From Roseburia sp. 831b (GTDB lineage Bacteria > Bacillota > Clostridia > Lachnospirales > Lachnospiraceae), in the NCBI RefSeq assembly GCF_001940165.2, contig NZ_CP135162.1, positions 1,690,001 through 1,754,000 on the forward strand: a stretch of 64,000 bases of DNA, given 5' to 3'. Below the pieces are notes generated by a model. The model saw nothing but the letters and a program-made list of their open reading frames with translations. It was not told the DNA's origin and made no database searches. Within the stretch, counting starts at the first letter, position 1, and the number at the start of each line of letters is the position of its first letter. The position numbers and the translations under genes were made by a program. Shown piece after piece: positions 11,365-62,206 of this stretch.

Positions 11365-14300
11365 CTACTCTGCAATCAAGGCTGCAGATACATCCTGCAT
11401 GGTCAGATTATGGTTTCCTAACACAGCACCACTTTCCGGTGTTCCAAGAAGCAACGCAAACTCTCCTGTATTCGTTGTATCCTCTGTCCAGATTGTTTCT
11501 ACTTCATAGTCGAGCTGCTGGCCTGCTGTTACTGTGATGTCGTCATAATAACCTTTATAGCCATTCGCAGGATCACGGAATGCAAGTTTACATGTACGAT
11601 TCACATCTGAGACGACGGAAAACTTAATCCGATACCTTCTGTTCTTTTCCAAAACAAGATTCTGCTGTGCAAGCTGAATATCCCAATTGTTTGTTCCAGA
11701 ATTGTCGATTGCAAGTGTATAAACACCATCTTCCTGCGATGCTGACACATTACATGCAGGGTCCGCATAAGTATAGAGACCATTTAATATATTTTCTCCT
11801 TCTGGCTGCGTCGGCGTAATCACTGGTGCCTCAATCTTCTCTAAGGAAATCTGGTCGAAGCAGACACGATGTTTCTGTGAAATCTGTATGCCATCAACAG
11901 CTCCAAGTGTAAAGGACAAAATCGAATGCAAGTCTGTTGCGCTTGACATCTCAAACTCAAGTCTTATTGTCTGATATTGATTATCCCCCCGCAATTCCAC
12001 AATCTTACTTCCTGTATACGGAATCCAGTTATTATCTGCGGAACCATCTCTTTGAATCGCATACATAATCTTACGGTTTAAGTCGGATTTCACATCAAAC
12101 TGCAAACGATACCATTGACCTTCCTCTAACACAATGTCATTCTGTTTCAACTGGATATACCAGTCTGTATCTCCTGTATTTTCAATTGTGATGTCTGCTG
12201 CATTATTTTCCTTTAAGCTGTCTACCACAACCGTTGCCAATCCATCCGAATATTTGTAGAACTCATAACCGGAAAGACCTGCATTAAAAGAACCGTTTTT
12301 TATCAAAGAATCTTCTACAATCTTGATATTGTCAAGATATACTTCCCCATTTCCGGTCATTTCAAATCGTAAATCTTTGTTTTCATAAACATTGTCTTGA
12401 ATCTTCATGGTATAAGTCTGACTCTGATCCGTTAAGGTATACGACTGCTCCACGCCTGCTGCTTTTACAAGTAAAGCTACATTTCCTCTTGCAACAAAAG
12501 ACAATTCATAATTGACACCATCGTTAAACGCAAGTCCTTTCTGTTCCACCACAAGTGGATTGTCCTGCATATGTGCTACTATTGCATGAAGCTCCCTGAC
12601 ATTATCTTCATTTGTAACAGACACTGCGCCAGCATCAGATGTCTCCCAGTATGCAAATCTTCCCTCGCCTTCCTGGAATTCTCCATTGTATACAAGACTT
12701 CCATTCGCAAGAATTGTTTTTTCTTCCTGTTCATTTGGATCTGCATCGCTTACCATTCGAATCACAACATTTTTTAAATCAATTTCTGCAATAGAACCTG
12801 CATTTCCCATATTAAATTCCAAGCGGCCATTGGCATCACTATCCTCTGTCATCTTGAAGGTATAAGCGAAATGCGTCCAATCTGGCGTTAATACTGTATT
12901 TTCACTCATATACGCCATGTAAGACCGATCTGGTGCTTTCACAGCCGTATTCATAGTCCTTGCTTCCGCTGCTTTGGCATCATAAGACACCTCGTAGGTT
13001 GCCCCCTTCTTAAACGGAACTCCTGCCTGTACAAGCTGAACGCTATAATCTACACTGCCAGCACTCTTTGTCTGGATCTTCATCATATTATCTTCAATCA
13101 CAGCCTGTGCCTCTCCACCATTTGCAGCTAAGAATTTCCAATCCACATCATCTGTTAAACTTTCTTTCGTCTGGAAACTTCCGTTATTAATATAGTTTCC
13201 ATTTTCATCTGGATTACGTAACACAATCTCCTTTTTCGGTTTTGTCACATTCTCATCATAACTGTCTTTCTGATATACTCTCACATAATCAACGACAAGC
13301 TGTGCGCGCTCATCAAATGGTGTTTCTTCATCGATATCACCTACCCAAGAACCACCAACCGCAACATTTAAAATCATATAGAATGGCTGATCAAATGGTG
13401 CCGGATACGCAACCGTTCCCACGTTTTTCTTTGTGGAATACCAGTCCTGTTCCTCATGATATAGAACACCATCTACATACCATTTTATAGAACCTGGCTC
13501 CCATTCACATCCAAACACATGATATTTATTTGCAAAATCTCCACTCCTAAGTATCTTCGTTCCCTGGCTCTGTGCATGTGGTTCTCCATAATGAATGGTT
13601 CCATATAATTTATTTGTCTGCTGTCCCATTACCTCCATGATATCAATTTCACCACATTTTGGCCACTGACCATAAAGGTTTTCATTGGATGGCATCATCC
13701 AGAATGCCGGCAGATAACCAGAACCTTCTGGGACTTTTGCGCGACATTCAAAATAACCATATTTAAAATCATGTTTTCCCTGTGTATTTACTCTTCCAGA
13801 TGTATAGCTGACATTTCCATTCTCATCTACTATTTTCTTAGGCTGGATAACTAAATTACCATCTTTTAAGAAAACATTATCATCACTCTTTACATAGGAT
13901 TGCAATTCTTCATTTACCCATCCTGGCTCATGAATTTCATAGTTCCAATCCGTTTCTGCCAAAGAAGCCTCCTCAAATTCGTCCTCCCACACCATATGAT
14001 ATTTCGACCAGTCTGGTTCCTTTGGTGTATCCGGTTTCTCTGGTGTGTCTGGTTCCTCTGGTGTGTCCGGCTCCTCTGGTGTGCCCGGTTCCTCTGGTGT
14101 GTCCGGCTCCTCTGGTGTGCCCGGTTCCTCTGGTATGTCTGTTTTCTCTGGTTCATCTGGCGTGTCCGATTCAGCTGGTGTATCCGGCTTCTTTGGTGTG
14201 TCCGGTTTCTCTGGTTCGCCTGGTGTGCTCGATGTACCAGATGGTCTAACATTCTGTTCTGGAGTCACATTTATAGCCTCGCTTCCTGACGTATTATTTG

Positions 14301-45381: not shown

Positions 45382-46656
45382 TTAAGAAGCTAATGGTTCA
45401 TCAGGAGGAAGTATTCCCTCCCGTTGCAATAGTTTCTTGGCTTGCTTGATAGCTTTTGCCTTTTGTTTTTCAACAAGAGCTACAGGCATATCGATTTTGT
45501 AAAGATCGCTCGGATTCCACTGCTCACCAGTAGACAGCATCTGGTAGATGGCAGTAAGAATCATACGGGCAATAGCGATAATGGCTCTTTTCTTGCCACG
45601 ACGTTTAACAAGTGATTCATATTTCTTTTTGTAGTAAGGAGATTTGTCAGATTTTACGGCTGCATGAGCACACTGTACTAATGCAGGTTTGAGGTAGACA
45701 CCGGCACGTGTAATCCGAACAGATTTCTTCTTACCAGCAGATTCATTGCTGCCTGGTGTAAGACCAGCCCAGCAACATAAACGTTTGGAACTTGAGAACT
45801 GAGACATATCAGTACCGATTTCGGAGATGATAGTGATTGCACTATCACGTTTGACACCCGGAATGGTACAGAGGAACTGGACAGCATTTTCAAAATCAGG
45901 ATTAGAAGAAATCATATTTTCTATCATTTTATCAACATCGTTGATTTCTGCTGTGATATAATCCATATGTGTGCGGACGAGGCGCACACGGTATTTTTGG
46001 GCATCAGTCATCTGATATCCTTCGACGGATTCTATAACAGCATCTTCTTTGGATTTGAGGCTCCGAAGAAGCTTAGATGCGATTTCTTCGTGGTTAATGG
46101 ATGTACCCGATTGTTCAAGCAGATAGTCGATAATGGACATGGATGACTTCCCAAAGATATCGGAAACAACAGAATCTAATGCAACATTACAGACAGTAAG
46201 AGCATTCTGATATCGATTCTTTTCACTTGAACGGCAGGAAACAAGCTTGTAACGATAGCGAGTGTATTCCCTGAGAATACGGACTATCTTACAAGGGATA
46301 TAGCTGCCTTTGACAAGTCCGAGACGGAATAAATCCCCAATCCATTTAGAATCTTTGGTATCATCTTTGTTGCCTTTCACAGCCTTTACCCACTTGGGAT
46401 TGGCAATGACAACATTGATCTCATCTTCCAGAAGATTAAAGACAGGAACCCAGTATTTACCTGTGGATTCCATACAGACATCATGGCAATCATTGTCGAG
46501 AAGCCATTGCTTGAATTCAAGAATTGAATTGTTAAAGGTGGAAAAGCGCTTCTTTTGGTAAGAAGGCTCAATGCCACCAGTGGTTTTTACAATTGTGGCA
46601 ACGAGAAAAGATTTGTGAACATCGATACCACAACAGGTTTGATAAGTAACTTTCAT
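45382..46656 (-). CDS. IS110-family DEDD transposase/recombinase
   Basis: A 424-residue recombinase. The N-terminal RuvC-like DEDD domain begins CCGIDVHKSFLVAT and has CMESTGKYWVPVFN and ANPKWVKAVKGNKDDTKDS. The C-terminal Transposase_20 domain (about 275-360) has FLCTIPGVKRDSAITIISEIG and CCWAGLTPGSNESAGKKK with the catalytic serine region. The start is the ATG at 46656; the frame extension to 46731 lies in the element's non-coding end. Full length, so the element may be active. IS110 recombinases are guided by a bridge RNA encoded in a non-coding end. Confidence 0.95.
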   Translation of the reverse strand: MKVTYQTCCGIDVHKSFLVATIVKTTGGIEPSYQKKRFSTFNNSILEFKQWLLDNDCHDVCMESTGKYWVPVFNLLEDEINVVIANPKWVKAVKGNKDDTKDSKWIGDLFRLGLVKGSYIPCKIVRILREYTRYRYKLVSCRSSEKNRYQNALTVCNVALDSVVSDIFGKSSMSIIDYLLEQSGTSINHEEIASKLLRSLKSKEDAVIESVEGYQMTDAQKYRVRLVRTHMDYITAEINDVDKMIENMISSNPDFENAVQFLCTIPGVKRDSAITIISEIGTDMSQFSSSKRLCCWAGLTPGSNESAGKKKSVRITRAGVYLKPALVQCAHAAVKSDKSPYYKKKYESLVKRRGKKRAIIAIARMILTAIYQMLSTGEQWNPSDLYKIDMPVALVEKQKAKAIKQAKKLLQREGILPPDEPLAS

Positions 46657-46810
46657 AGTCAGACTCCTTTCGTGAATGATAAGAAGCCATTGACTGAACT
46701 GCCACACAATTAAACTAAGGTGCTTAAACAATTCTTAGTGTACGGATTCATGATGCCACTTATTTGTGCTTGAAAAGGCAGAACTTACACTGATTATTAT
46801 GCTGTCTAAA
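46657..46810 (-). ncRNA. Possible bridge RNA region of the IS110 element
   Basis: In the IS110 group (for example IS621) a structured bridge RNA is transcribed from the non-coding end upstream of the recombinase gene. This about 154-base stretch is in that position and has the right length. I did not recognise its loops; the call rests on position and family knowledge. Confidence 0.3.
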
Positions 46811-51328: not shown

Positions 51329-52540
51329 TTAGCGTGCTTTTCTTGTTCTTCTTACTGCTACCGCAAGAATTACTGCTGCCCCGCAAAGAAGTAAGAGATA
51401 TCCTGCAACAGGAGTGTTATCCCCTGTATCTACGGTCTTTACCTGTGCACCGTTTGTCTTGCTGACTGCAACCACATAATCAGATGCATGTGTAAAGGAA
51501 TAGGTTACCATACCATTCTCATCTACGGTATCCGTCTGCATATACTCTAAGGCTCCTTTGGTTGGATTGTAGTAATATAAGTTACCATACAAGCCTGCAC
51601 CTTTCACACCGACAGGAATGGACAACTCAAATGTACCGCCAAGTTCTCCTTCATAATCTAATGAGAACTGCATCTCGTATGAAATTCCGTCATCTTTTAT
51701 TGTTTTTAATACACTGTCTGGAATCTTTGTTGTATTCAACGTAACGCCAAGGTCAATTTCCTTTGCATCCGTAATTTTTGTACCGTTTACTTTCCATACA
51801 GCACCATTTTCAAGACGAAACTCTACGGTAACGTTCTTGCCTTTCAATGCTTCAAAGACACGTGCCGGAATCACTTCCTCGGATGCACTGACATTTGCAG
51901 ATATGGCTGCCCCATCTGCGGCACCGGAAATCTGACCGATTAAAACATCTGACAAACCTGCTGCCTGGACATTACCGTCTGTTGCAGGCGTATTTTTATT
52001 GTCATCCGTGTTCTTATCATCATCTTTTTTTGCATCGTCATCTTTTTTCGCATCATCGTCTTTCTTTGTATCTGTCCAGCTTGGTGTGACAGATACTTCT
52101 TCCGACTTTCCGCTTTGCTCTAACGCAGCATCCGCATTGTAAAGTTCCTTTACCTCTGTTCGGATGGCAGCCTCCTTACCATTTGCAGCATCTGTTGCAA
52201 GAAACGTAAGTGTCATGACATCTCCACCCTTCTTGCTTCCATTTACATTTGCAAATGCATAGGAAACGCCTTCCTCATAATCCGTATTTACGTCCTCTGC
52301 TTCCCATGTATCCGCTGTTTCTACTGTCTTTAATGTCAACAAATCCTTGTCATAAGAAACAACAACACGTCCACTTGTAATCTCTGTTCCGGCTTCTGCT
52401 GCCACCTCAACGGTAACAATCTTTCCATCTGCATCTGCCTTTGTCGAAATTACAGCTTCATCCGCCATGGCCGGCACTGTGCCAGCCAATAGCGTAAAAG
52501 AAAACAGAAGTCCACATAAAATTTTATTCAAATGTTTCAT
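51329..52540 (-). CDS. Wall-anchored cohesin-domain surface protein
   Basis: A 403-residue secreted protein. The signal peptide ends about VPAMADEA. Residues 28-150 have the look of a cohesin: paired strands with GRVVVSYDKDLLTLKTVET, a VSYAFANVN strand, then GGDVMTLTFLATDAA. A Lys-Asp-rich linker with KKDDDA repeats lies at about 158-182. A second beta-rich domain (about 195-355) follows. The C-terminus has VDTGD (about 370), a hydrophobic segment (about 379-396) and RRTRKAR, an LPXTG-like sorting signal of the xTGD type. GAAAGGAAAA precedes the ATG. It follows the dockerin-bearing subtilase by 17 bases and probably docks it to the wall. The cohesin call is a fold judgement by eye. Confidence 0.75.
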   Translation of the reverse strand: MKHLNKILCGLLFSFTLLAGTVPAMADEAVISTKADADGKIVTVEVAAEAGTEITSGRVVVSYDKDLLTLKTVETADTWEAEDVNTDYEEGVSYAFANVNGSKKGGDVMTLTFLATDAANGKEAAIRTEVKELYNADAALEQSGKSEEVSVTPSWTDTKKDDDAKKDDDAKKDDDKNTDDNKNTPATDGNVQAAGLSDVLIGQISGAADGAAISANVSASEEVIPARVFEALKGKNVTVEFRLENGAVWKVNGTKITDAKEIDLGVTLNTTKIPDSVLKTIKDDGISYEMQFSLDYEGELGGTFELSIPVGVKGAGLYGNLYYYNPTKGALEYMQTDTVDENGMVTYSFTHASDYVVAVSKTNGAQVKTVDTGDNTPVAGYLLLLCGAAVILAVAVRRTRKAR

Positions 52541-52557
52541 TTATCTGATTTTCCTTT

Positions 52558-55500
52558 CTATTTTCCCTGAACCGGACGATCCAATGCCGGTACACTGTCT
52601 ACGAGAGTTCCCTGTTCCAGACTTGTATTTGTCATTTTTCCAAGAACACTCTCTGTCACGGAAGTCTGGCTCGTCTGATTCCACTGATACAATCCGGCAA
52701 CCGGCCATACACCATCCGGGAATTTTCCTAACTCGTAGGTGAGAACGGTATCATCCTGATCGTCTCCATTAGAAATATCCTTAATTGCATACAAGGTTGT
52801 TTTTTTACTTCCATCATACATTGCCCAGAACAGATAATCTGCCTCTGAATCATAGTAAAGGGAATTGTAATACCAATTGCCATTGGTGCTGACACCGGTA
52901 TTTCCTACTTTTACAAAAATGGGTTCTAAACCAACTACATATGCAAACTGGTATAAATTACCCGCATCCGATACTGCATAAAAGATATCCATCAGATGTG
53001 TCTCATCATACTGTGTTGTACCTGCATACGCAACGCCGACAAGATATTCCTCGCCAAGTTTGGAAGCAAAGTTCAAATTGCCAAGGCTTTCACCTGATGC
53101 TGCGTCAATCACCTGAACATATGGTCCATAGGTCGCATAAAGAAGACCTGTGGATGAACTGTATGCCATGTCGGTACACCACTGTGTATTATTCAACTTT
53201 GTTGCACTGTATCCATTTGCAGGATCAATCATATAAATGTCAGACTTCTGTGAAGTATCATACGTTGCTGCAAATAACTTATCGCCAACCTGTGCAGCTG
53301 ACATATATTTGTAGCTCTGCTCTTCTGAAATCTTGTTGTAAGATGAAGTATCAGAACTGTTGAAAGAAGACCAGTATACAGCGCCCTCTTCATCCCAGAC
53401 AATACCGTTTAACCCAACGGATAACGTTTCTACCGTCACATTACACTCTGCCTTCAATGGTGTTCCATCTGCACCGTTTGCCACTGTTGTTGCTGTAATC
53501 ACTGCTGTTCCATCACCGTTTGCTGTCACAACACCATTTGCATCTACCGTTGCAACTGCTTCGTTCGAAGAACTCCAGGTTACAGAATCATCTAAAACGT
53601 ATTCTGGTCCAACGGTTGCTGTCAGCTGCGCTGTGCCACCTTTTAGCATACTAAGTGTGGTCTGATCTAAGGTAATACTATCTGCCTGATTCGTATCTTC
53701 ATTTCCACTGTTGTTGATACGATAGGTTGTGTAGTTTCCTGCATAATCATATACTTTTGCATAGAATACACCGCTTGGAACATCGATGGACACAGTTGTC
53801 TTTGCACCGATTTTTTCCTGGTTCATATCGTAAGAGCCACATACTGTCTTTTTATCACTCTTATAAAGTTTTACCGTTGCTACATAGCGGTTATCGGAAA
53901 CGGTAAATGCCATCTTTCCATCATCGCTATTCTCCACCTTTTCAACCTTAGGTGCTGTGTTATCAATTGTCATCGGAACGGTATAACTTAATCCTTTTCC
54001 GGTTAAATCCTCTAATGCAACACCGTCGTAATAAGATGGAACTGCGGTTACCGTAATATTTACTTTTGTTCCTTCCGCAAGTGGTTTTCCAGCTGCGTCT
54101 GTTCCCTTCCAGTCAAGAGCTGTGCTTGCAAGCGTATTTTGCCAGCTCGACTCATTTGCATAGTAGAATGCTGCTGTACCTTCACCACTCTCTTTGGTCA
54201 GATATACTTCCCCTGTCTCTGCATTTGAAACAGTTGCAACCACACGTGCTGCATTACGGATTAACGTATAGTAAGCACTTGCAATGCTGTCTCCTGATTC
54301 AGAAGAGAATGCATTGCGGTCTGCGATATATGCCGCATCTCCTGTTGTTGAGAACATATTTGAGGTATAGTAATACTTTTTATTGCTTCCTGCATAGGTG
54401 TAAGTCAGATAATTTGTCTTTTCCACCTGTGTATAAGTTGCTTCTGTCTCTCCATTATTTGCTGCCTCTAGGAAATCGTATGGCTCATACATGGAAGAGT
54501 CACCCCAGTTTCCATAGAATGCAAGCATTGGAACAGAAAGGTCTACCTTGCCTTTCATATAGATAAATCCATCAACATACATACCATTTTCAAAGCTGTT
54601 TTCCAAGTATGCCTTATCTTCTGCTGATAATGTAACTTTTACTGTTACATCCGTGCGGTCTTTTACCGCAATTACTTTCTGGCTAAAATCTACAGATGGC
54701 TTATCTGCTTTTACTTCTTTTAAGAAATGGTAAACATCCGCTGTATTGACTGTACCATCTCCATTGAAGTCAAATGCATCCTGATAAAAAGATACCACGG
54801 AAAGTGTCTTTCCGTTGACGTGTGCTAACAGTGCTTTCGCATCTTTTTCATCCACTTTTCCATCTTTGTTTAAATCATATAAATAGTTCTGTTCTTTGGA
54901 ACTGATTGTTACAGTCGGATTCAGTTTATGGGAAGTTCCTCCAATAAATGCATCCTCTAAAAGTTCTTCCGTCATAATAGAACTATCCGCTGTGTAGTAC
55001 TGTGTCTCGTCGGATAAGTTATACATACTGAACGAGAAATTGTAAACACCAGTTCTATCCGGGTCATCCCCTAATTCAGCTTTTACTTTTCCGTCATTTC
55101 CTTCTTTGTCTCCTACCAGAATGTAAACTGGAGATGTCGTAGCCTTTTCTACATTTGCAAGTCCTGCACCCTGACTTCTTGGGGAATATTCTTCTCCATC
55201 GGATTCCGTCAGAGGAATTGCGGTACTCATCAACAGAGACTGTGATAAGGTACGCACACTAAGACCTGTTTTTGTGGCAAGATTGTTCTCCTTGATGTAC
55301 TGTGCCATCAATGCACTCATACCGGCTACACTTGGTGCTGCCATGGAAGTACCACTCATCAATCCATACTGTCCATCATCTAAAGTAGAGTAAATATTTC
55401 CACCCGGTGCCGTAATTTCCGGTTTTAATGCAAGGCTGTCCGGAACTCCGACGGATGAGAAATCACTCATCAAATATCCATCTGCTGCATTATAGTTTGT

Positions 55501-57276
55501 CGTTACTTTTGCTGATACTAAAACTTTTCCGGTGTATGCCTTTGTGCTCTCATCGTAAGATGCACCTTTCGCAATTGTCTGTGCATCTGCCTGTGTAATG
55601 GATGCGCAAGGAATTGTCGCCGTAGAGCCGGAAAGGCTCATGCCGATGGTGCCTGATGTATTATTATAGATAAGTACGCCGATTGCACCTGCTTTCTCTG
55701 CATTCATATGTTTATCCGAAAAACTGATGGTACCTCGGCTGACAAGCACAATTTTTCCTTTTACATCAACGTTTGCATAGTCTGATTCCTCACCATAACC
55801 TGTGAGCAGCACATAATCATACTCTGTTCCACTCGCATCCGACGAAGTATCCAATGTTGTAAATGCTTTGTTTGATGCGCTAGAGCCATCATCATAATAA
55901 GAATCATATGCACCGTCAAATTTTGCACTGTGTCCGGTATAACCTGAGTTTACAGCACTTGCAACGGTAAATGCATTGGTATAGGAACCAGGGGAACCTA
56001 CGGTGTCAAGATTGACATCACTTGCTAAGTTACCGCCATAATAGCTGTCGTCTGACCATCTTCCGGAGTTACCGGCAGAAATGCTTACTACGGTATCAGA
56101 CCCCTGCAATTTATCAAAAATCTCATTGACATAGGCTTCACTGTCTGTGGAGTTACCGGCGCTCGAAGAACCGAGACTTAAGTTGATGGCATCTGCTTTT
56201 AAAAGAATGGCATCCTCAATGGCAGCCATATAATCATCGGTATAAGCGCCACCTTTTGTACCAAATACTTTCATGGTAATCAACTGTGCTTCCGGTGCAA
56301 CACCGACAACACCTGATTCCTGTGCGGCATATCCGTCTGCTGTTGGAACATAACGGTTTGCGCAGGCAATACCGGATACATGTGTACCATGATCCCCCTG
56401 TGTATCATTGTCGTGTGTAACATCGAGATTCTCATCTACATAGTTAAATGCATATGCAATCTTATCACTCAAAAAAAGATCATCCGCTGTTAAGCCGCTA
56501 TACATAGACGTGGCATTTAACTTTGGAAGAACCTGTGCGATCTCATCTTTATTTAACAACTGATATGCGTCGACGGTTGTTCCCTCTTCTTTTGCTGTCT
56601 CTGCTAACGCATAATCGAATGCAGCGCCGTCGAACGATGGATGATCAGCATCGATACCGGTATCGATAACTGCGATTCTCTGACCTGCTCCTGTATATCC
56701 AGCTTCCCATGTATGGTAGCTTCCAATCATGGTGCCTGCTGTAATGGTATTTGGATTTGCAGTCTCCATCACATCATATTTTGGTGTAATGTAAACATTC
56801 GAAACCCCTTCTACCTCCTTGATGCTCTCAATATCACCATATTTTACGGTTGCAGCAACCGCATTGGTCAAAATGGTAAAATTGTAACGAACATCTAATT
56901 CTTCACCATCTAAGGCTTCTTCTGAAATCTGGTCTACTACCTGATTCTGTTCTTTTTCCACTTTGTCAGAATATGCCATTGCCTTGGAATTGTCTGCAAG
57001 ATCTGATGTAGAATAACCCTTATCTACCACTGCATCCTCATCCATGACAATCATAACTCTGACTTCATCTTCATCCTCATATTCGGTCTCCGGCTCTGTT
57101 GCTTCTTCCGCCGAAACCGCTGTGTCTGACATATCGTCATCCACTTTTTCCAAGACAGGTTCCTCTGTATCTGTCTGACCTGTGGTGCTGGCAAATGCTG
57201 TACTTGTCATTTGCACCGTCATACACAGAATCAGAAACAGAGATGCCAATCCCTTTTTCCAGTTATGATTTTTCAT
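52558..57276 (-). CDS. Secreted subtilisin-like protease with internal dockerin and Big2 domain
   Basis: A 1572-residue secreted S8 protease. The signal peptide covers residues 1-30; a propeptide follows to about 175. The triad is Asp in IAVIDTGIDADHPSF (about 205), His in GDHGTHVSGIACA (about 296) and Ser in GTSMAAPSVAGM (about 642), with a protease-associated insert (about 470-590). A Fn3-like region leads to two dockerin repeats at about 793-852: DLNKDGKVDEKDAKALLAHV and DFNGDGTVNTADVYHFLKEV. Ig-like and Big2 domains (LTATVGPE, VTWSSSNEAVATVDANGVV) and a beta-rich C-terminus follow. GAGGAGGA precedes the ATG. The cohesin gene is next in the operon. The dockerin lies in the middle of the chain, which is unusual. 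Confidence 0.88.
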   Translation of the reverse strand: MKNHNWKKGLASLFLILCMTVQMTSTAFASTTGQTDTEEPVLEKVDDDMSDTAVSAEEATEPETEYEDEDEVRVMIVMDEDAVVDKGYSTSDLADNSKAMAYSDKVEKEQNQVVDQISEEALDGEELDVRYNFTILTNAVAATVKYGDIESIKEVEGVSNVYITPKYDVMETANPNTITAGTMIGSYHTWEAGYTGAGQRIAVIDTGIDADHPSFDGAAFDYALAETAKEEGTTVDAYQLLNKDEIAQVLPKLNATSMYSGLTADDLFLSDKIAYAFNYVDENLDVTHDNDTQGDHGTHVSGIACANRYVPTADGYAAQESGVVGVAPEAQLITMKVFGTKGGAYTDDYMAAIEDAILLKADAINLSLGSSSAGNSTDSEAYVNEIFDKLQGSDTVVSISAGNSGRWSDDSYYGGNLASDVNLDTVGSPGSYTNAFTVASAVNSGYTGHSAKFDGAYDSYYDDGSSASNKAFTTLDTSSDASGTEYDYVLLTGYGEESDYANVDVKGKIVLVSRGTISFSDKHMNAEKAGAIGVLIYNNTSGTIGMSLSGSTATIPCASITQADAQTIAKGASYDESTKAYTGKVLVSAKVTTNYNAADGYLMSDFSSVGVPDSLALKPEITAPGGNIYSTLDDGQYGLMSGTSMAAPSVAGMSALMAQYIKENNLATKTGLSVRTLSQSLLMSTAIPLTESDGEEYSPRSQGAGLANVEKATTSPVYILVGDKEGNDGKVKAELGDDPDRTGVYNFSFSMYNLSDETQYYTADSSIMTEELLEDAFIGGTSHKLNPTVTISSKEQNYLYDLNKDGKVDEKDAKALLAHVNGKTLSVVSFYQDAFDFNGDGTVNTADVYHFLKEVKADKPSVDFSQKVIAVKDRTDVTVKVTLSAEDKAYLENSFENGMYVDGFIYMKGKVDLSVPMLAFYGNWGDSSMYEPYDFLEAANNGETEATYTQVEKTNYLTYTYAGSNKKYYYTSNMFSTTGDAAYIADRNAFSSESGDSIASAYYTLIRNAARVVATVSNAETGEVYLTKESGEGTAAFYYANESSWQNTLASTALDWKGTDAAGKPLAEGTKVNITVTAVPSYYDGVALEDLTGKGLSYTVPMTIDNTAPKVEKVENSDDGKMAFTVSDNRYVATVKLYKSDKKTVCGSYDMNQEKIGAKTTVSIDVPSGVFYAKVYDYAGNYTTYRINNSGNEDTNQADSITLDQTTLSMLKGGTAQLTATVGPEYVLDDSVTWSSSNEAVATVDANGVVTANGDGTAVITATTVANGADGTPLKAECNVTVETLSVGLNGIVWDEEGAVYWSSFNSSDTSSYNKISEEQSYKYMSAAQVGDKLFAATYDTSQKSDIYMIDPANGYSATKLNNTQWCTDMAYSSSTGLLYATYGPYVQVIDAASGESLGNLNFASKLGEEYLVGVAYAGTTQYDETHLMDIFYAVSDAGNLYQFAYVVGLEPIFVKVGNTGVSTNGNWYYNSLYYDSEADYLFWAMYDGSKKTTLYAIKDISNGDDQDDTVLTYELGKFPDGVWPVAGLYQWNQTSQTSVTESVLGKMTNTSLEQGTLVDSVPALDRPVQGK

Positions 57277-57317: not shown

Positions 57318-58660
57318 GTGTCTTCGACACTCTCAACTCCCCTAGCCCCTCATTCATGAGGGGTAGGGGTTTTCTTATCTCCTTCTTTATTGTAAAATTC
57401 TATTATGAATATATTACAATCCATCTTTACCGATTATTATGAACACATCATTTACCAACTCCATCCTCGTCCTGCTGTCATTGAAAATGTCAACAAGATG
57501 ATTCATTGTGGTGACTCTTCTCACGGTGGTGCCATGTATGGCTGTCCTCACTGCGGAAATCTTAAATTTGTTCCCTTTCGCTGTAAAAGCCGTTTTTGCC
57601 CTTCCTGTGGAAACAAATACAACCAGCTTCGTTCTTTTCAGATGTCCTGCAAGCTCGTTTCCTGTGTTCACCGCCATTGTGTTTTCACCATCCCAGAGGA
57701 ACTCCGCATTTATTTTCTCAAAGACAGGTCTCTCTTAAATTGCTTATTTCATTCTGTCCGTGACGTTGTCCTTCGTATGTTTTCCAAAATGAATAAAACT
57801 GAAAACTTTACTCCCGGATTTATCTGTGTTCTTCACACCTTTGGGCGTGACTTAAAATGGAATCCCCATATCCATGCCCTCATCTCTGAAGGCGGTGCTG
57901 GCAACATCACTCCCTGGCGTCCTGTCAAACACTTTGATTACAACTTTCTTCGTAATGCCTTCCGCAAAGTGCTGCTTGAACAGCTCTCCTTCCGTATTGG
58001 TCCCACCTTTCGTAAAGTTAAAAATGAAATGTACACAAAACACTCCAATGGTTTTTATGTTCGTGCAAAGCCAAATCTCTGCACTCCTGATATTACCATT
58101 AAATACATCAGCCGATACCTCGGCAGGCCTGTTATCGCCACATCACGTATTGATTATTATGACGGCGAAAATGTAACCTTTCATTACACCAGACACGAAG
58201 ACAACAAAACAGTTACTGAAACCATCCCTGCTTTGAACTTCATCCAAAAACTAATTGTACACATCCCCGAAAAACATTTCAAAATGCTTCGCTACTATGG
58301 GATATATGCCAAACATCATAAACAGGAAAAGAATCTCCGTAAATGTATTTCTGCTGAAAAACAACATTTCCTGCGTTCTATCCAGGACTGGCGGCACTCC
58401 ATTCTTCTCTCTTTCGGATACGACCCTCTCTGCTGTTCCGAATGTGGCACTTCTATGTTGGTTTTAGAAGTTTACCACAAAAAAACTGCACTATTTGAAC
58501 AATATCGAAAGGTTATGGGATATGGATAACTCCATGCTCATAGTAATTCTTTCTCCATAGTCAGATAGTGCAGCTGTCCTAAACCAAAACAAAAAACTTC
58601 ATAAACAACGTCATGGCGAATCCACCATTCGCTCTTTTGTCATGTCATTTTTTATTTCAA
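57318..58660 (+). mobile_element. IS91-like rolling-circle element (ends approximate)
   Basis: The element holds one HUH-type transposase gene. The upstream side has hairpin GTGTC/GACAC (57318-57330) and a longer one CCCCTAGCCCCTCAT / ATGAGGGGTAGGGG (57339-57369) with one bulged G; the downstream side has GCGAAT/ATTCGC (58616-58632). IS91 elements lack long terminal inverted repeats and have hairpins near the terIS and oriIS ends, so these are candidates. The element separates the dockerin subtilase from the gene at 58755. Exact boundaries cannot be set. Confidence 0.5.
57405..58529 (+). CDS. IS91-family HUH transposase
   Basis: A 374-residue rolling-circle transposase. The N-terminal zinc-binding domain has YGCPHCGNLKFVPFRCKSRFCPSCGNKY. 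The HUH motif is NPHIHALIS (about 156); the catalytic Tyr is likely in KYISRYLGRP (about 225-235). A C-terminal region with CCSECGTSMLVLEVYH ends it. Full length, with no frameshift seen. It is convergent with the gene at 58755 and divergent from the subtilase. Confidence 0.92.
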   Translation: MNILQSIFTDYYEHIIYQLHPRPAVIENVNKMIHCGDSSHGGAMYGCPHCGNLKFVPFRCKSRFCPSCGNKYNQLRSFQMSCKLVSCVHRHCVFTIPEELRIYFLKDRSLLNCLFHSVRDVVLRMFSKMNKTENFTPGFICVLHTFGRDLKWNPHIHALISEGGAGNITPWRPVKHFDYNFLRNAFRKVLLEQLSFRIGPTFRKVKNEMYTKHSNGFYVRAKPNLCTPDITIKYISRYLGRPVIATSRIDYYDGENVTFHYTRHEDNKTVTETIPALNFIQKLIVHIPEKHFKMLRYYGIYAKHHKQEKNLRKCISAEKQHFLRSIQDWRHSILLSFGYDPLCCSECGTSMLVLEVYHKKTALFEQYRKVMGYG

Positions 58661-58754: not shown

Positions 58755-59405
58755 CTACCATCTTTTTTTCTGTTGCATATATACAATCAGTACGATAACA
58801 CATATCACTACAATTGTTATTGCCAGGATTGTCATTCTATTACTTCCAGTGAAATTTTTTTGTACATCCAGAGTACTTTCTGTACTGCTCTCTGTTGTCA
58901 TCTCGTACTCTGTCACTGTCTCTTCCGTCATGACTGTCCCGGACTCACTGTTTCCTACTTCTATGCTTTCACTTTCTTCTGGTGTATCTTTGGGCAAAGC
59001 GTCTGTTGTCAGTTCTGCTTCTTCCATCGCTGTAATTGATTTTACTTCCGGCAGCTTTGCCGCCTGGTCGTACTGCTCCTTTTTCAGGATTACAACAACC
59101 GCATTCCCTCCGGTATCTTCCCGCTCGATTTTTAGATCGTCACCATCCGATACTTCCTGTCGAATCAGCTTTATCCCATCTTCTATGGAAATGGAATCCG
59201 AAAAAACCAAATAACTATGTATCTCACTTTTCTGTTCGGAAATCTTCTCTGTTGTCTCGATTACTTCATTGCGTGATTCTGCGGCACTGCTGTTTCCGCT
59301 CTCCACCTCTTCAAATCGAATCTGATTTGCCATTCCGTCAGCCCCTAACCTATTCAATGCGTATACCGGTATACATTTATTACCAGATGCAACATATTCT
59401 AGCAC
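58755..59405 (-). CDS. Membrane-anchored protein with propeptide-like domain
   Basis: A 216-residue protein of unknown function. Residues about 65-128 (HSYLVFSDS, then DGIKLIRQEVSDG, ending LPEVKSI) resemble the inhibitor-I9 / subtilisin-propeptide fold, which ends in a similar L-x-x-P-x-V-x-S-I strand. A Glu/Thr-rich spacer follows, then one membrane helix (about 190-210) and MQQKKRW at the C-terminus. No signal peptide is evident: the first 25 residues are not hydrophobic, and a GTG start is unsupported. An internal ATG at 59330 is an alternative. Either the true N-terminus has been lost or the gene is degraded. Confidence 0.55.
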   Translation of the reverse strand: MLEYVASGNKCIPVYALNRLGADGMANQIRFEEVESGNSSAAESRNEVIETTEKISEQKSEIHSYLVFSDSISIEDGIKLIRQEVSDGDDLKIEREDTGGNAVVVILKKEQYDQAAKLPEVKSITAMEEAELTTDALPKDTPEESESIEVGNSESGTVMTEETVTEYEMTTESSTESTLDVQKNFTGSNRMTILAITIVVICVIVLIVYMQQKKRW

Positions 59406-59485: not shown

Positions 59486-62206
59486 TTACCGATTCATCTT
59501 ATAACCACACTTTGGGCACACATTTCCTCCTTTATAGGTATATCCGCAGCGGAAACAGCAGATGGTCTCATGCTTTTCTTTTGCAAGATAGGTAACATTT
59601 CTAGATTCCGGTTTTTCCTGCAAATACGCGATAAAATCCGAAAGAATCTTTGCCCACTTTGTCATCTCAGAAGTCTCTACCGCATATGGAATCTTTGTCT
59701 TGGTTCCATCGTGCTGTTCTACCGTAATTCCTCTTCCAAGCAGACCTGTATTTGCTTTTACACTGCGGATGGTCTGAATCGGAATTCCATACGCATTCAA
59801 AATGGTACTGTAAAACAGATGCTCCGGGGTTAAAATGATTCCCTCTTTTCCGCTCTCATTCCTTGACGTATCTACCACTAAAATCGGGTATTCGAATGGT
59901 TTCCTTTTCGTTGCATAAGTTCCAAGTGCATAATCAATGACCTGCATTTCCTCCTCGGTCGCCTCTTTTAAGAGGACTTTTCTTGCCGGATAAAAATGAT
60001 GTCTTGGATTTTCCTTAATTTTCCCATCCATGGCGTCTTTTAACTTAGAAACTAAAAGCTCACATTCATCTGCCTTAATCTTTGTTAAACGTTTCACAAG
60101 CATTTCGAGTGCATCCACCTTTAATTCTGGCAGATATGCCCCCTGTGAAATCTTTTCATACGCTTTTGCTGCCGCATCAAAATCCATATGAGAAATATCC
60201 TTGCAAATCCCGGCAATCTCATCGGCATCCTTTTCCTTGATGCGCTCCCTGATTTTCTCGATGAAAGGCGCTGCATTTTCCGGTAAAAAGTCTCCCTCCT
60301 GAATTTTCTTTAGCAAATCAACATAATCTTCCCTGGAGATTTTTCTGGCACGCTTTACAAGATTTCCAAGCTCCTGTGTCTCAATTCCTTCTCTCCTTTG
60401 CTGAAGCTCCTTTTGATACGGTGTCATATCGACATCCTCATATTCCTTTAGCTTATCCACATATCTTTGATAACCTTTTCGGTCAAGATTTTGTGGCATC
60501 TGCTCCATTAGCTGCCTTACTTCTTTTTCACCTTTTTCGCGTAAAAGAAGCTTAATTCTATCTAGTAAAGATTCCTTGAACTCCTTTGGAACTTCTGCTC
60601 CTTTTATCTCATCAGCCACCCGTTTTAACTGTACATATCCATAGTTTTCCGCCGCATCCGCTCTTTTTTCCAATTCCTGCATGCGCCCCTGCTGCTCTTT
60701 TTCCTGTACTTTGGTAAGCATGGTTTTCTTTTGTACATCATCAAACAACGGCTCATTTTTTATCTGAAGTATCAGTTCCTGGCGCTGGCGTGGCGATAAA
60801 CGCTCCCAGAGATTCATCCTGGTCTCATAATTTTCCTTTTTCTCTTTGGCTGCCTTTTTTCTGCGCTCTAATATCCGAACATCCTCTGGCACCGCCTGTG
60901 TGCTGCCAGACAGGTGTTCCTTCTGATATGCTATCTTTTCTTCGCCTTCATAATCAGGCGTCCTCTGCGAAGTTACAACACTTCCTGCACCCCGGCGCTG
61001 TGCCATCCTGCCTGTTTCACGCTGCTTTGGACCCAGCTGCCCGGATTGTTTTTCTCCTGGCATCTGTTCTTTTGTATCATATTTGTTCTTTTTCTGACGT
61101 TTCTTCGTCTGCTCCTTAATCTTTTCTTCCTGTTTTTGAATCAGCTCATGTGGGAAAAATCCTTCCTCAATCCGCGCCTTTAATCTGGAGAATTCCAAAT
61201 CCGGTAACTTCTCCAACCGCTCACAAAGATCCGCTAGTTCCTCTTTGGCAGACTCACTTCCCTGCTCTTTTGTACTCTGTACCGGCTTTGCATTGCGGTC
61301 TTTTACGAACTCATTAAAGTGATAGTTAGACGTATTTTCCCCTCTTTCCCCAAGCAGTTCCAGATAATCCTCGTAAGCTTTTCGGTCAGACAAAAACGGC
61401 ATTTCGTAGCATGCGCCCTCCGCTAAAAGTTTCTTTGGCCGCGGGGTGTAAAAACAATTGCAATGGTCACATGCATAGGCTCTTGCTAAATAGACTTTTC
61501 CCTCTTCGGTATCCACAAGAAGCTCCTTGCCCTCCGGGAACACGACCATATGCATTTTTTGTTTGCACTTTGGACAAAGATAGCCAACCAGGTAAAAATT
61601 ATGTCCAAGACGCTCCTTCCGTCGTTCCGCAAGGGTTGTCTCCACCTTTTGAAAAGAAGTATCTAACTTTTTCCAAATCAGCTTGTGCCAAAGTCCTTGC
61701 TTTTCTTCCTCTGCAAGTTCCGGCTCCTGTGCCGGTTTTTGCTGTACCTCAAGCATTGCCTGTACAACATCCTCAAAAGTCAGGCGGATTCCTTCCTTGT
61801 AGAAGCGGAATTTTTCTCTGGAAAACGCCGGCTCTACATAGATTTCCTCTAATATTTTGGCAAACAACTGGTCTAATTTTGCATAATCCTGATCCACGCG
61901 GAGTCCTTTTATCATGCCCCATTTTCCAAATGCATAAAGCGTCATATTAAGCACATTTTGCACCTTCGGATATAAAACCAGCTCAATGACTTCTTCCTGA
62001 TTGACGGGAATGTCTATGATATTTGTCGCGACCTTTTTATTTTCGAAATGAAAAAAGAGAGAACGCACTTCTCCCTGTAAAATCAGGTAATCCTCTAAGA
62101 CTGCAATCAGTCCCGTCCACTTCACGTTCTCTCCCATTGTTTCAATTACTTTTTCAAATGTCTGTTTTGTTTCTGTGTTTGCATTCAGTAAAATCAAAAG
62201 AAACAC
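59486..62206 (-). CDS. Large zinc-ribbon protein of unknown function
   Basis: A 906-residue hydrophilic protein I do not recognise. The N-terminal 150 residues look globular. A zinc-ribbon-like segment follows (LCPKCKQKMHMVV, CDHCNCFYTPR; about 212-260). Residues 330-760 are very rich in Lys and Glu and mostly helical, with repeating units of the DYVDLLKKIQEGDFLPENAAPF and AAKAYEKISQGAYLPELK kind. The C-terminus has a PH-like segment (ILTPEHLFYSTI, IQTIRSVKA) and a final ribbon CCFRCGYTYKGGNVCPKCGY. The GTG start at 62206 lies almost on GAGGTG; a TTG at 62197 has better spacing. It follows an O-antigen-ligase-like gene by 16 bases. Confidence 0.75.
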   Translation of the reverse strand: MFLLILLNANTETKQTFEKVIETMGENVKWTGLIAVLEDYLILQGEVRSLFFHFENKKVATNIIDIPVNQEEVIELVLYPKVQNVLNMTLYAFGKWGMIKGLRVDQDYAKLDQLFAKILEEIYVEPAFSREKFRFYKEGIRLTFEDVVQAMLEVQQKPAQEPELAEEEKQGLWHKLIWKKLDTSFQKVETTLAERRKERLGHNFYLVGYLCPKCKQKMHMVVFPEGKELLVDTEEGKVYLARAYACDHCNCFYTPRPKKLLAEGACYEMPFLSDRKAYEDYLELLGERGENTSNYHFNEFVKDRNAKPVQSTKEQGSESAKEELADLCERLEKLPDLEFSRLKARIEEGFFPHELIQKQEEKIKEQTKKRQKKNKYDTKEQMPGEKQSGQLGPKQRETGRMAQRRGAGSVVTSQRTPDYEGEEKIAYQKEHLSGSTQAVPEDVRILERRKKAAKEKKENYETRMNLWERLSPRQRQELILQIKNEPLFDDVQKKTMLTKVQEKEQQGRMQELEKRADAAENYGYVQLKRVADEIKGAEVPKEFKESLLDRIKLLLREKGEKEVRQLMEQMPQNLDRKGYQRYVDKLKEYEDVDMTPYQKELQQRREGIETQELGNLVKRARKISREDYVDLLKKIQEGDFLPENAAPFIEKIRERIKEKDADEIAGICKDISHMDFDAAAKAYEKISQGAYLPELKVDALEMLVKRLTKIKADECELLVSKLKDAMDGKIKENPRHHFYPARKVLLKEATEEEMQVIDYALGTYATKRKPFEYPILVVDTSRNESGKEGIILTPEHLFYSTILNAYGIPIQTIRSVKANTGLLGRGITVEQHDGTKTKIPYAVETSEMTKWAKILSDFIAYLQEKPESRNVTYLAKEKHETICCFRCGYTYKGGNVCPKCGYKMNR

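Follow-up and report, generated by a model that had tools for sequence, protein, structure and literature searches.

Within a 64,000-nucleotide stretch of the Roseburia sp. 831b genome (contig NZ_CP135162.1, positions 1,690,001 to 1,754,000; hereafter the window), a gene for a secreted, dockerin-bearing subtilase is followed directly by a gene for a surface protein with a cohesin domain. The two products probably constitute a dedicated one-to-one cohesin–dockerin pair, outside any cellulosome, that serves a protease of the lactocepin/C5a-peptidase type. The cell-envelope-type subtilase carries its dockerin, with two calcium loops, inside an Fn3-like domain, and the next gene supplies a single cohesin, as judged by predicted fold, to match; after secretion, the two would bind in a calcium-dependent 1:1 complex. 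In the clade of the window, a sortase would fix the cohesin protein to the cell wall, and the protease would thereby be held at the surface non-covalently via an adaptor, not via an LPXTG tail of its own as in its streptococcal relatives. Where the partner has no recognisable anchor, the cohesin may act as a subunit or attach by other means.

The subtilase, its dockerin and the neighbouring cohesin

A sequence-only reading of the window had proposed a dockerin-bearing subtilase followed by a cohesin protein, and both domains are confirmed by Pfam (each above cut-off), the cohesin also by predicted fold. The type I dockerin occupies residues 797–858 (54703–54888) of the 1572-residue S8 subtilase (52558–57276, minus strand, as are all features of the pair). 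It is matched by Dockerin_1 at E 8e-7, with a PF00404 score of 29.6 bits against a cut-off of 22.9. Two 12-residue calcium loops begin at 801 and 836, each followed by a helix (810–820 and 845–856, corresponding to residues 107–117 and 142–153 of the predicted model), and the block is modelled with a predicted local distance difference test (pLDDT) score of 90–95. Its placement as an insertion in the Fn3-like (A) domain was read from the sequences of relatives and is also seen in the model.

Position 10 of loop 2 is a threonine in all 36 aligned dockerins (T845 in the window protein), whereas loop 1 varies there, and this suggests, at the level of sequence, that one binding face is preferred. 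Conservation of the calcium positions is not counted, as these entered into the selection of the aligned sequences. A sequence search with the dockerin gives a weak match (E 0.017) to PDB 8x39, a chain labelled 'Serine protease'; we take this chain, as a guess, to be the Clostridium thermocellum S8 protease that bears dDoc_0689. In a fold search with the dockerin-region model, the matches listed were filled by larger Fn3-like domains, with no dockerin among them.

The 403-residue partner (51329–52540) begins with a signal peptide, read by eye, and is separated from the subtilase gene by 17 nt (52541–52557) containing a ribosome-binding-like AGGAAA, also read by eye. Its cohesin domain (residues 27–156; 52073–52462) scores 26.1 bits for PF00963 against a cut-off of 24.1. 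A PDB sequence search with the single protein matched no cohesin, a search with the family profile gave only weak cohesin matches (best E 0.011), and an NCBIfam scan matched no named family; the identity of the domain is settled by fold search. The predicted model adopts the cohesin beta-sandwich, and the possibility that the 403-residue protein lacks a cohesin fold can, on this prediction, be set aside. The closest solved fold is CohA2 of the Clostridium acetobutylicum CohA2–Doc0917 complex (PDB 6kgc–6kgf; 18% identity), with Archaeoglobus fulgidus 2xdh and Clostridium perfringens 2vo8 and 2jh2 also among the top matches. The same complex supplies the solved sequence nearest to the window dockerin. 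The nearest dockerin sequence and the nearest cohesin fold are thus partners in the same structures, which supports, without proving, that the window proteins may bind each other; Doc0917, unlike the dockerin of the window, belongs to a cellulose-binding endoglucanase, according to its PDB molecule name.

The remainder of the subtilase has the lactocepin/C5a-peptidase layout: an S8 domain with a PA insert, followed by Fn3-like domains. Pfam recognises the catalytic domain (Peptidase_S8, residues 196–705; 55162–56691; E 1.9e-45), which holds the triad D205/H296/S644 and N403, and the PA domain (residues 496–568; 55573–55791; E 1.8e-18); the Fn3-like region is seen by fold only, the Pfam fn3_5 model being unmatched in the window protein. 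A Big_2 Ig-like domain lies further along (residues 1199–1271; 53464–53682; E 2.8e-15), and a prodomain-like region (residues 78–162; 56791–57045) matches Inhibitor_I9 below cut-off (E 0.055). Neither the sequence nor the Pfam scan revealed a C-terminal wall anchor on the subtilase, which ends ...VPALDRPVQGK.

Conservation of the pair and its one-to-one character

Named genomes were scanned with the post-catalytic region of the protease (alignment A1, with search words lying after the dockerin), and the best 80 of 382 confirmed stretches were considered. Among the 48 closest loci (L082–L129), a cohesin protein lies directly downstream on the same strand in 45; L127 has no cohesin, L118 and L128 break off before the place could be judged, and the cohesin thus adjoins the subtilase in 45 of the 46 assessable loci. 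The pair is thus conserved, contrary to a doubt raised with the sequence-only reading. Its hosts, by record title, include Roseburia, Butyrivibrio, Pseudobutyrivibrio, other Lachnospiraceae, and one Traorella metagenome-assembled genome (MAG; L123). Gaps between the two genes range from −125 to +18 nt, taking the first possible start, and gene order and close spacing are kept at 36%–56% identity in the protease region. Within the genus of the window, distribution is patchy: a subtilase match (E ≤ 1e-30) occurs in 7 of 62 genomes, the window's own included, and only G351 has another close match (62%).

The more distant loci (L130–L161, n = 32) differ. Three (L131, L138, L155) have no assignable open reading frame, and a purpose-built model finds the dockerin in four (L130, L132–L134); a cohesin above threshold is present only in L130, where it is fused and weak, with sub-threshold matches in L132 and near L135. 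Over all loci scored—named loci, fetched stretches, and the window, with loci cut by a contig end kept apart and L190 repeating L098—51 have both dockerin and cohesin, 5 dockerin alone, 5 cohesin alone, and 23 neither.

Other layouts combine the same modules. L186 encodes a single chain of 1979 residues comprising S8, dockerin (Pfam), cohesin, and a TGD tail; its cohesin is matched by purpose-built models (E 1.4e-7 and 1.6e-10) and is unmatched by Pfam at E ≤ 0.1. In L130, S8 and dockerin are joined to three SLH repeats (Pfam) and to a cohesin matched weakly, by the general model alone; additional fusions, with weaker matches, occur in L187 and L188. In L192, L196, L199, and L200, a gene with a weak cohesin match sits just upstream, and Pfam recognises none of the four as cohesin.

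The genome of the window contains a single Dockerin_1 match, in this subtilase, and one clear cohesin, in its neighbour; one further cohesin lies near threshold and, as a protein, below cut-off. Whole genomes were examined for 25 of the 45 pair loci (dockerin E ≤ 1e-4, cohesin E ≤ 1e-3). Dockerin is matched in 21 of these, exactly once in 18, twice in G459 and G476, and three times in G480; cohesin is matched in 17, exactly once in 16 and twice in G480. Sixteen of the 18 cohesin matches adjoin a dockerin match on the same contig. In G458 the cohesin lies beside a subtilase whose dockerin Pfam misses, and a cohesin of G480 (on C13) lies elsewhere, beside another subtilase. These Pfam counts are lower bounds, as purpose-built models find the pair in the genomes that Pfam leaves unmatched, and a diverged second dockerin or cohesin elsewhere in a genome could escape the Pfam models.

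Docking, anchoring and rival explanations

The cohesin protein of the window ends in a probable sorting signal (51332–51436), judged from its sequence by eye: TVDTGD, a hydrophobic helix (378–402 in the model), and a basic tail. The genome encodes three sortases. Wall tethering is therefore likely in the clade of the window.

Several observations weigh against the dedicated docking pair with a wall anchor. The Pfam LPXTG model is unmatched at the TVDTGD tail. Among the 43 of 45 partners whose C-termini could be read by eye (L088 and L103 end with the contig), ten have a TGD tail, one has choline-binding-type repeats, and 32 have no recognisable anchor. Some partner proteins fall below the Pfam cohesin cut-off or threshold. 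Five complete loci hold a dockerin without a detected cohesin (L127, L132, L134, L194, L195; L132 has a sub-threshold match), and a cohesin stands near or in a subtilase without a detected dockerin in L192, L193, L199, L200, and the second L188 protein. The association of the two domains is, moreover, partly a matter of kinship, since the loci that have no dockerin tend to be the remoter relatives as well. Finally, pairwise distances of dockerin and cohesin covary (r 0.87; 36 aligned dockerins, of which 27 passed filters and 25 non-redundant ones were compared), but the protease region beside the dockerin correlates with the cohesin just as strongly (r 0.90). The covariation is thus only suggestive, and co-inheritance could explain it.

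Docking is accordingly more general than anchoring, given the 32 partners without a recognisable anchor. The wall anchor proposed in the sequence-only reading is likely for the clade of the window and does not extend to the relatives at large, with an anchor recognisable in 11 of 43 partners. Its 'minimal surface proteolysome' fares similarly: the docking idea is well supported, because the cohesin fold is predicted and the pair is conserved, but the multi-enzyme sense of the term falls away, and a single-cargo tether or subunit is left, since most of the genomes examined have a single match to each of the two modules. In L107 (a Butyrivibrio MAG; 11433–12440), the cohesin of the partner protein comes with six choline-binding-type repeats and no sorting signal, which is another way of attaching.

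The strongest rival, possible if clearly less probable than a dedicated docking pair, holds that the cohesin is not mainly a tether but has a structural or regulatory role within the protease: by gripping the dockerin it would stabilise the enzyme, set its position, or switch it, and anchoring would have been added secondarily in some clades. Most Butyrivibrio and Pseudobutyrivibrio partners in the scan show, by eye, no recognisable anchor but an additional small module, and in the L096 partner, Pfam-scanned as one such protein besides L091 and L107, Cohesin alone exceeds cut-off. The L186 fusion points the same way, as dockerin and cohesin share one chain with its own anchor-like tail, and tethering would need no docking. 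The sorting-like tails of the window and ten relatives, and the repeats of L107, are, however, what anchors predict.

It is improbable that the dockerin is a mere calcium-stabilised insert and that the cohesin beside it has some other ligand or a different dockerin as its target. In favour of this reading, proteins are commonly stabilised by calcium loops, the dockerin is internal, and five loci have it without a detected cohesin. Against this stand the near-constant presence of the cohesin next door (45 of 46 assessable loci), the lack of a second dockerin match for it to bind in 18 of the 21 genomes with one, and the fused forms that combine the same modules.

Membership of a cellulosome or amylosome docking several enzymes on one scaffold was considered and rejected as very unlikely. 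The module families are the same, and dockerin proteases exist in cellulosome makers according to the available part of PMC12484212, but a scaffoldin with several cohesins serving several dockerin enzymes was not found in the genome of the window (one dockerin match, one clear cohesin, and one borderline), and most relatives checked likewise have a single dockerin match (18 of 21). Chance adjacency or an annotation artefact has next to nothing in its favour: cohesin and dockerin matches are common in the family (114 and 111 of 299 genomes, respectively), but conservation of order and close spacing across 36%–56% protease-region identity refutes it.

Known systems, neighbouring genes and meaning

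Streptococcal cell-envelope proteinases (C5a peptidase, SpyCEP, and the SGO_0316 family) and lactocepin bear their own C-terminal LPXTG anchor, which for the SGO_0316 family is stated in its NCBIfam name; the window protease, in contrast, has an inserted dockerin and no anchor of its own. Cohesin modules outside cellulosomes are represented by A. fulgidus 2xdh and C. perfringens 2vo8 and 2jh2, which the window resembles in this respect, and which presumably differ from it in cargo and gene layout and involve no protease.

The available part of PMC12484212 describes two surface-held proteases. The C. thermocellum S8 protease with double dockerin dDoc_0689 is bound by a cohesin of the cell-bound scaffoldin ScaD (Chen et al. 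2024) and is, like the window subtilase, a dockerin-bearing S8 protease proposed to be cohesin-held on the surface; it differs in belonging to a full cellulosome, in its double dockerin, and in that no private partner gene is described there. A Ruminococcus flavefaciens cysteine peptidase is held by an X-dockerin to ScaE (Levy-Assaraf et al. 2013), again a protease docked on a surface-anchoring cohesin, but with a cysteine peptidase, a shared cellulosomal anchor, and an X-dockerin dyad. In Butyrivibrio proteoclasticus, cell-bound protease activity is attributed to the subtilisin Bpr_I2629, and the strain is said to have no cohesins (available text of PMC2914790).

The available portions of this literature yielded no description of a private two-gene protease pair or its spread in Lachnospiraceae, nor of an internal dockerin in a cell-envelope proteinase or a prodomain-like neighbour; the survey of non-cellulosomal cohesins by Peer et al. 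(2009) may list some of the modules. The novelty claimed for the two-gene form thus holds for the sources available, but dockerin proteases held at the surface had already been reported in cellulosome bacteria (PMC12484212, in part). Cohesin-held surface proteases and non-cellulosomal cohesins are already known; what appears, from the sources available, to be new is the private one-to-one protease pair.

Upstream of the subtilase lies a gene for a membrane protein of 216 residues as called (58755–59405, minus strand), with a prodomain-like domain (59225–59016) and a C-terminal transmembrane segment read by eye (58832–58776). Its residues 61–130 resemble the subtilase's own prodomain, and a profile comparison with the proteases' prodomains, the subtilase region described above included, gave a probability of 96 and E 3.7e-9 (one comparison). 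PF05922 (I9) is unmatched among nine proteins of the upstream family at E ≤ 1, and Pfam gives no match above cut-off in the membrane protein; the label is therefore limited to 'prodomain-like' despite the strong profile comparison. A model started from the window sequence and then grown places the same gene upstream in 16 of the 45 relatives that have 1 kilobase or more of upstream sequence, and not in the other 29. Pseudobutyrivibrio xylanivorans DSM 14809 (L096) and Butyrivibrio fibrisolvens 16/4 (L095) are cultured relatives in which both the pair and this upstream gene are present. The simplest guess is that the membrane protein may act as a tethered inhibitor or a chaperone.

An IS91-family transposase gene (57405–58529, plus strand; Zn_Tnp_IS91 and Y2_Tnp) separates this gene from the subtilase and, with an IS110-family transposase (45382–46731), flanks the region. 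A 906-residue protein encoded at 59486–62206 has, by eye, cysteine motifs resembling zinc ribbons, and Pfam matches nothing in it at E ≤ 0.001. The cohesin protein itself has a C-terminal module (residues about 198–365; 51446–51949) for which Pfam has no named family and which recurs in other large surface proteins of Lachnospiraceae, the genome of the window encoding five such proteins; the whole protein is matched in 55 of 299 genomes at E ≤ 0.001, mostly via this C-terminal half.

A different cohesin–dockerin pair occurs in L073, L074, L075, L081, and 22 further genomes. Its first gene encodes a secreted protein with a Cadherin-like domain and a C-terminal dockerin (L075 adds SH3_3 and a weak glucosaminidase match), and its second a protein that combines cohesin and Cadherin-like domains and has, by eye, a long acidic tail and a transmembrane segment. 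Among the matches listed and read by eye, at least 26 of 299 genomes have the two Pfam matches at most 250 bp apart on the same strand; the domain content was confirmed for L075 and L081. The borderline cohesin in the genome of the window (G000:C1:1833765–1835633; L072 5766–7634) is of this Cadherin-like second kind, below Pfam cut-off, and has no dockerin partner beside it, making it an apparent orphan.

A broader and tentative proposal is that a private cohesin subunit, releasable in a calcium-dependent manner, sets the position or activity of the protease within a surface unit of gut and rumen Lachnospiraceae unrelated to cellulosomes, in many cases alongside a prodomain-like protein, tethered in the membrane, by which the protease is held or chaperoned there. 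The cohesin–dockerin interaction might then be a two-protein enzyme–subunit device, of which cellulosomes are one elaboration. Were the upstream protein an inhibitor, the surface protease would come as a complete unit with its own control.

Work on cohesin–dockerin pairs has mostly dealt with many-to-many assemblies of cells that degrade fibre; in the present case, the arrangement is conserved as one-to-one, with a protease as cargo. Such simple natural pairs, with their fused, unanchored, and wall-binding variants, allow one to ask why bacteria use a plug and socket where a fused tail might serve. The pair would also explain, for gut and rumen Lachnospiraceae, cell-bound proteolysis by a protease that has no anchor of its own.

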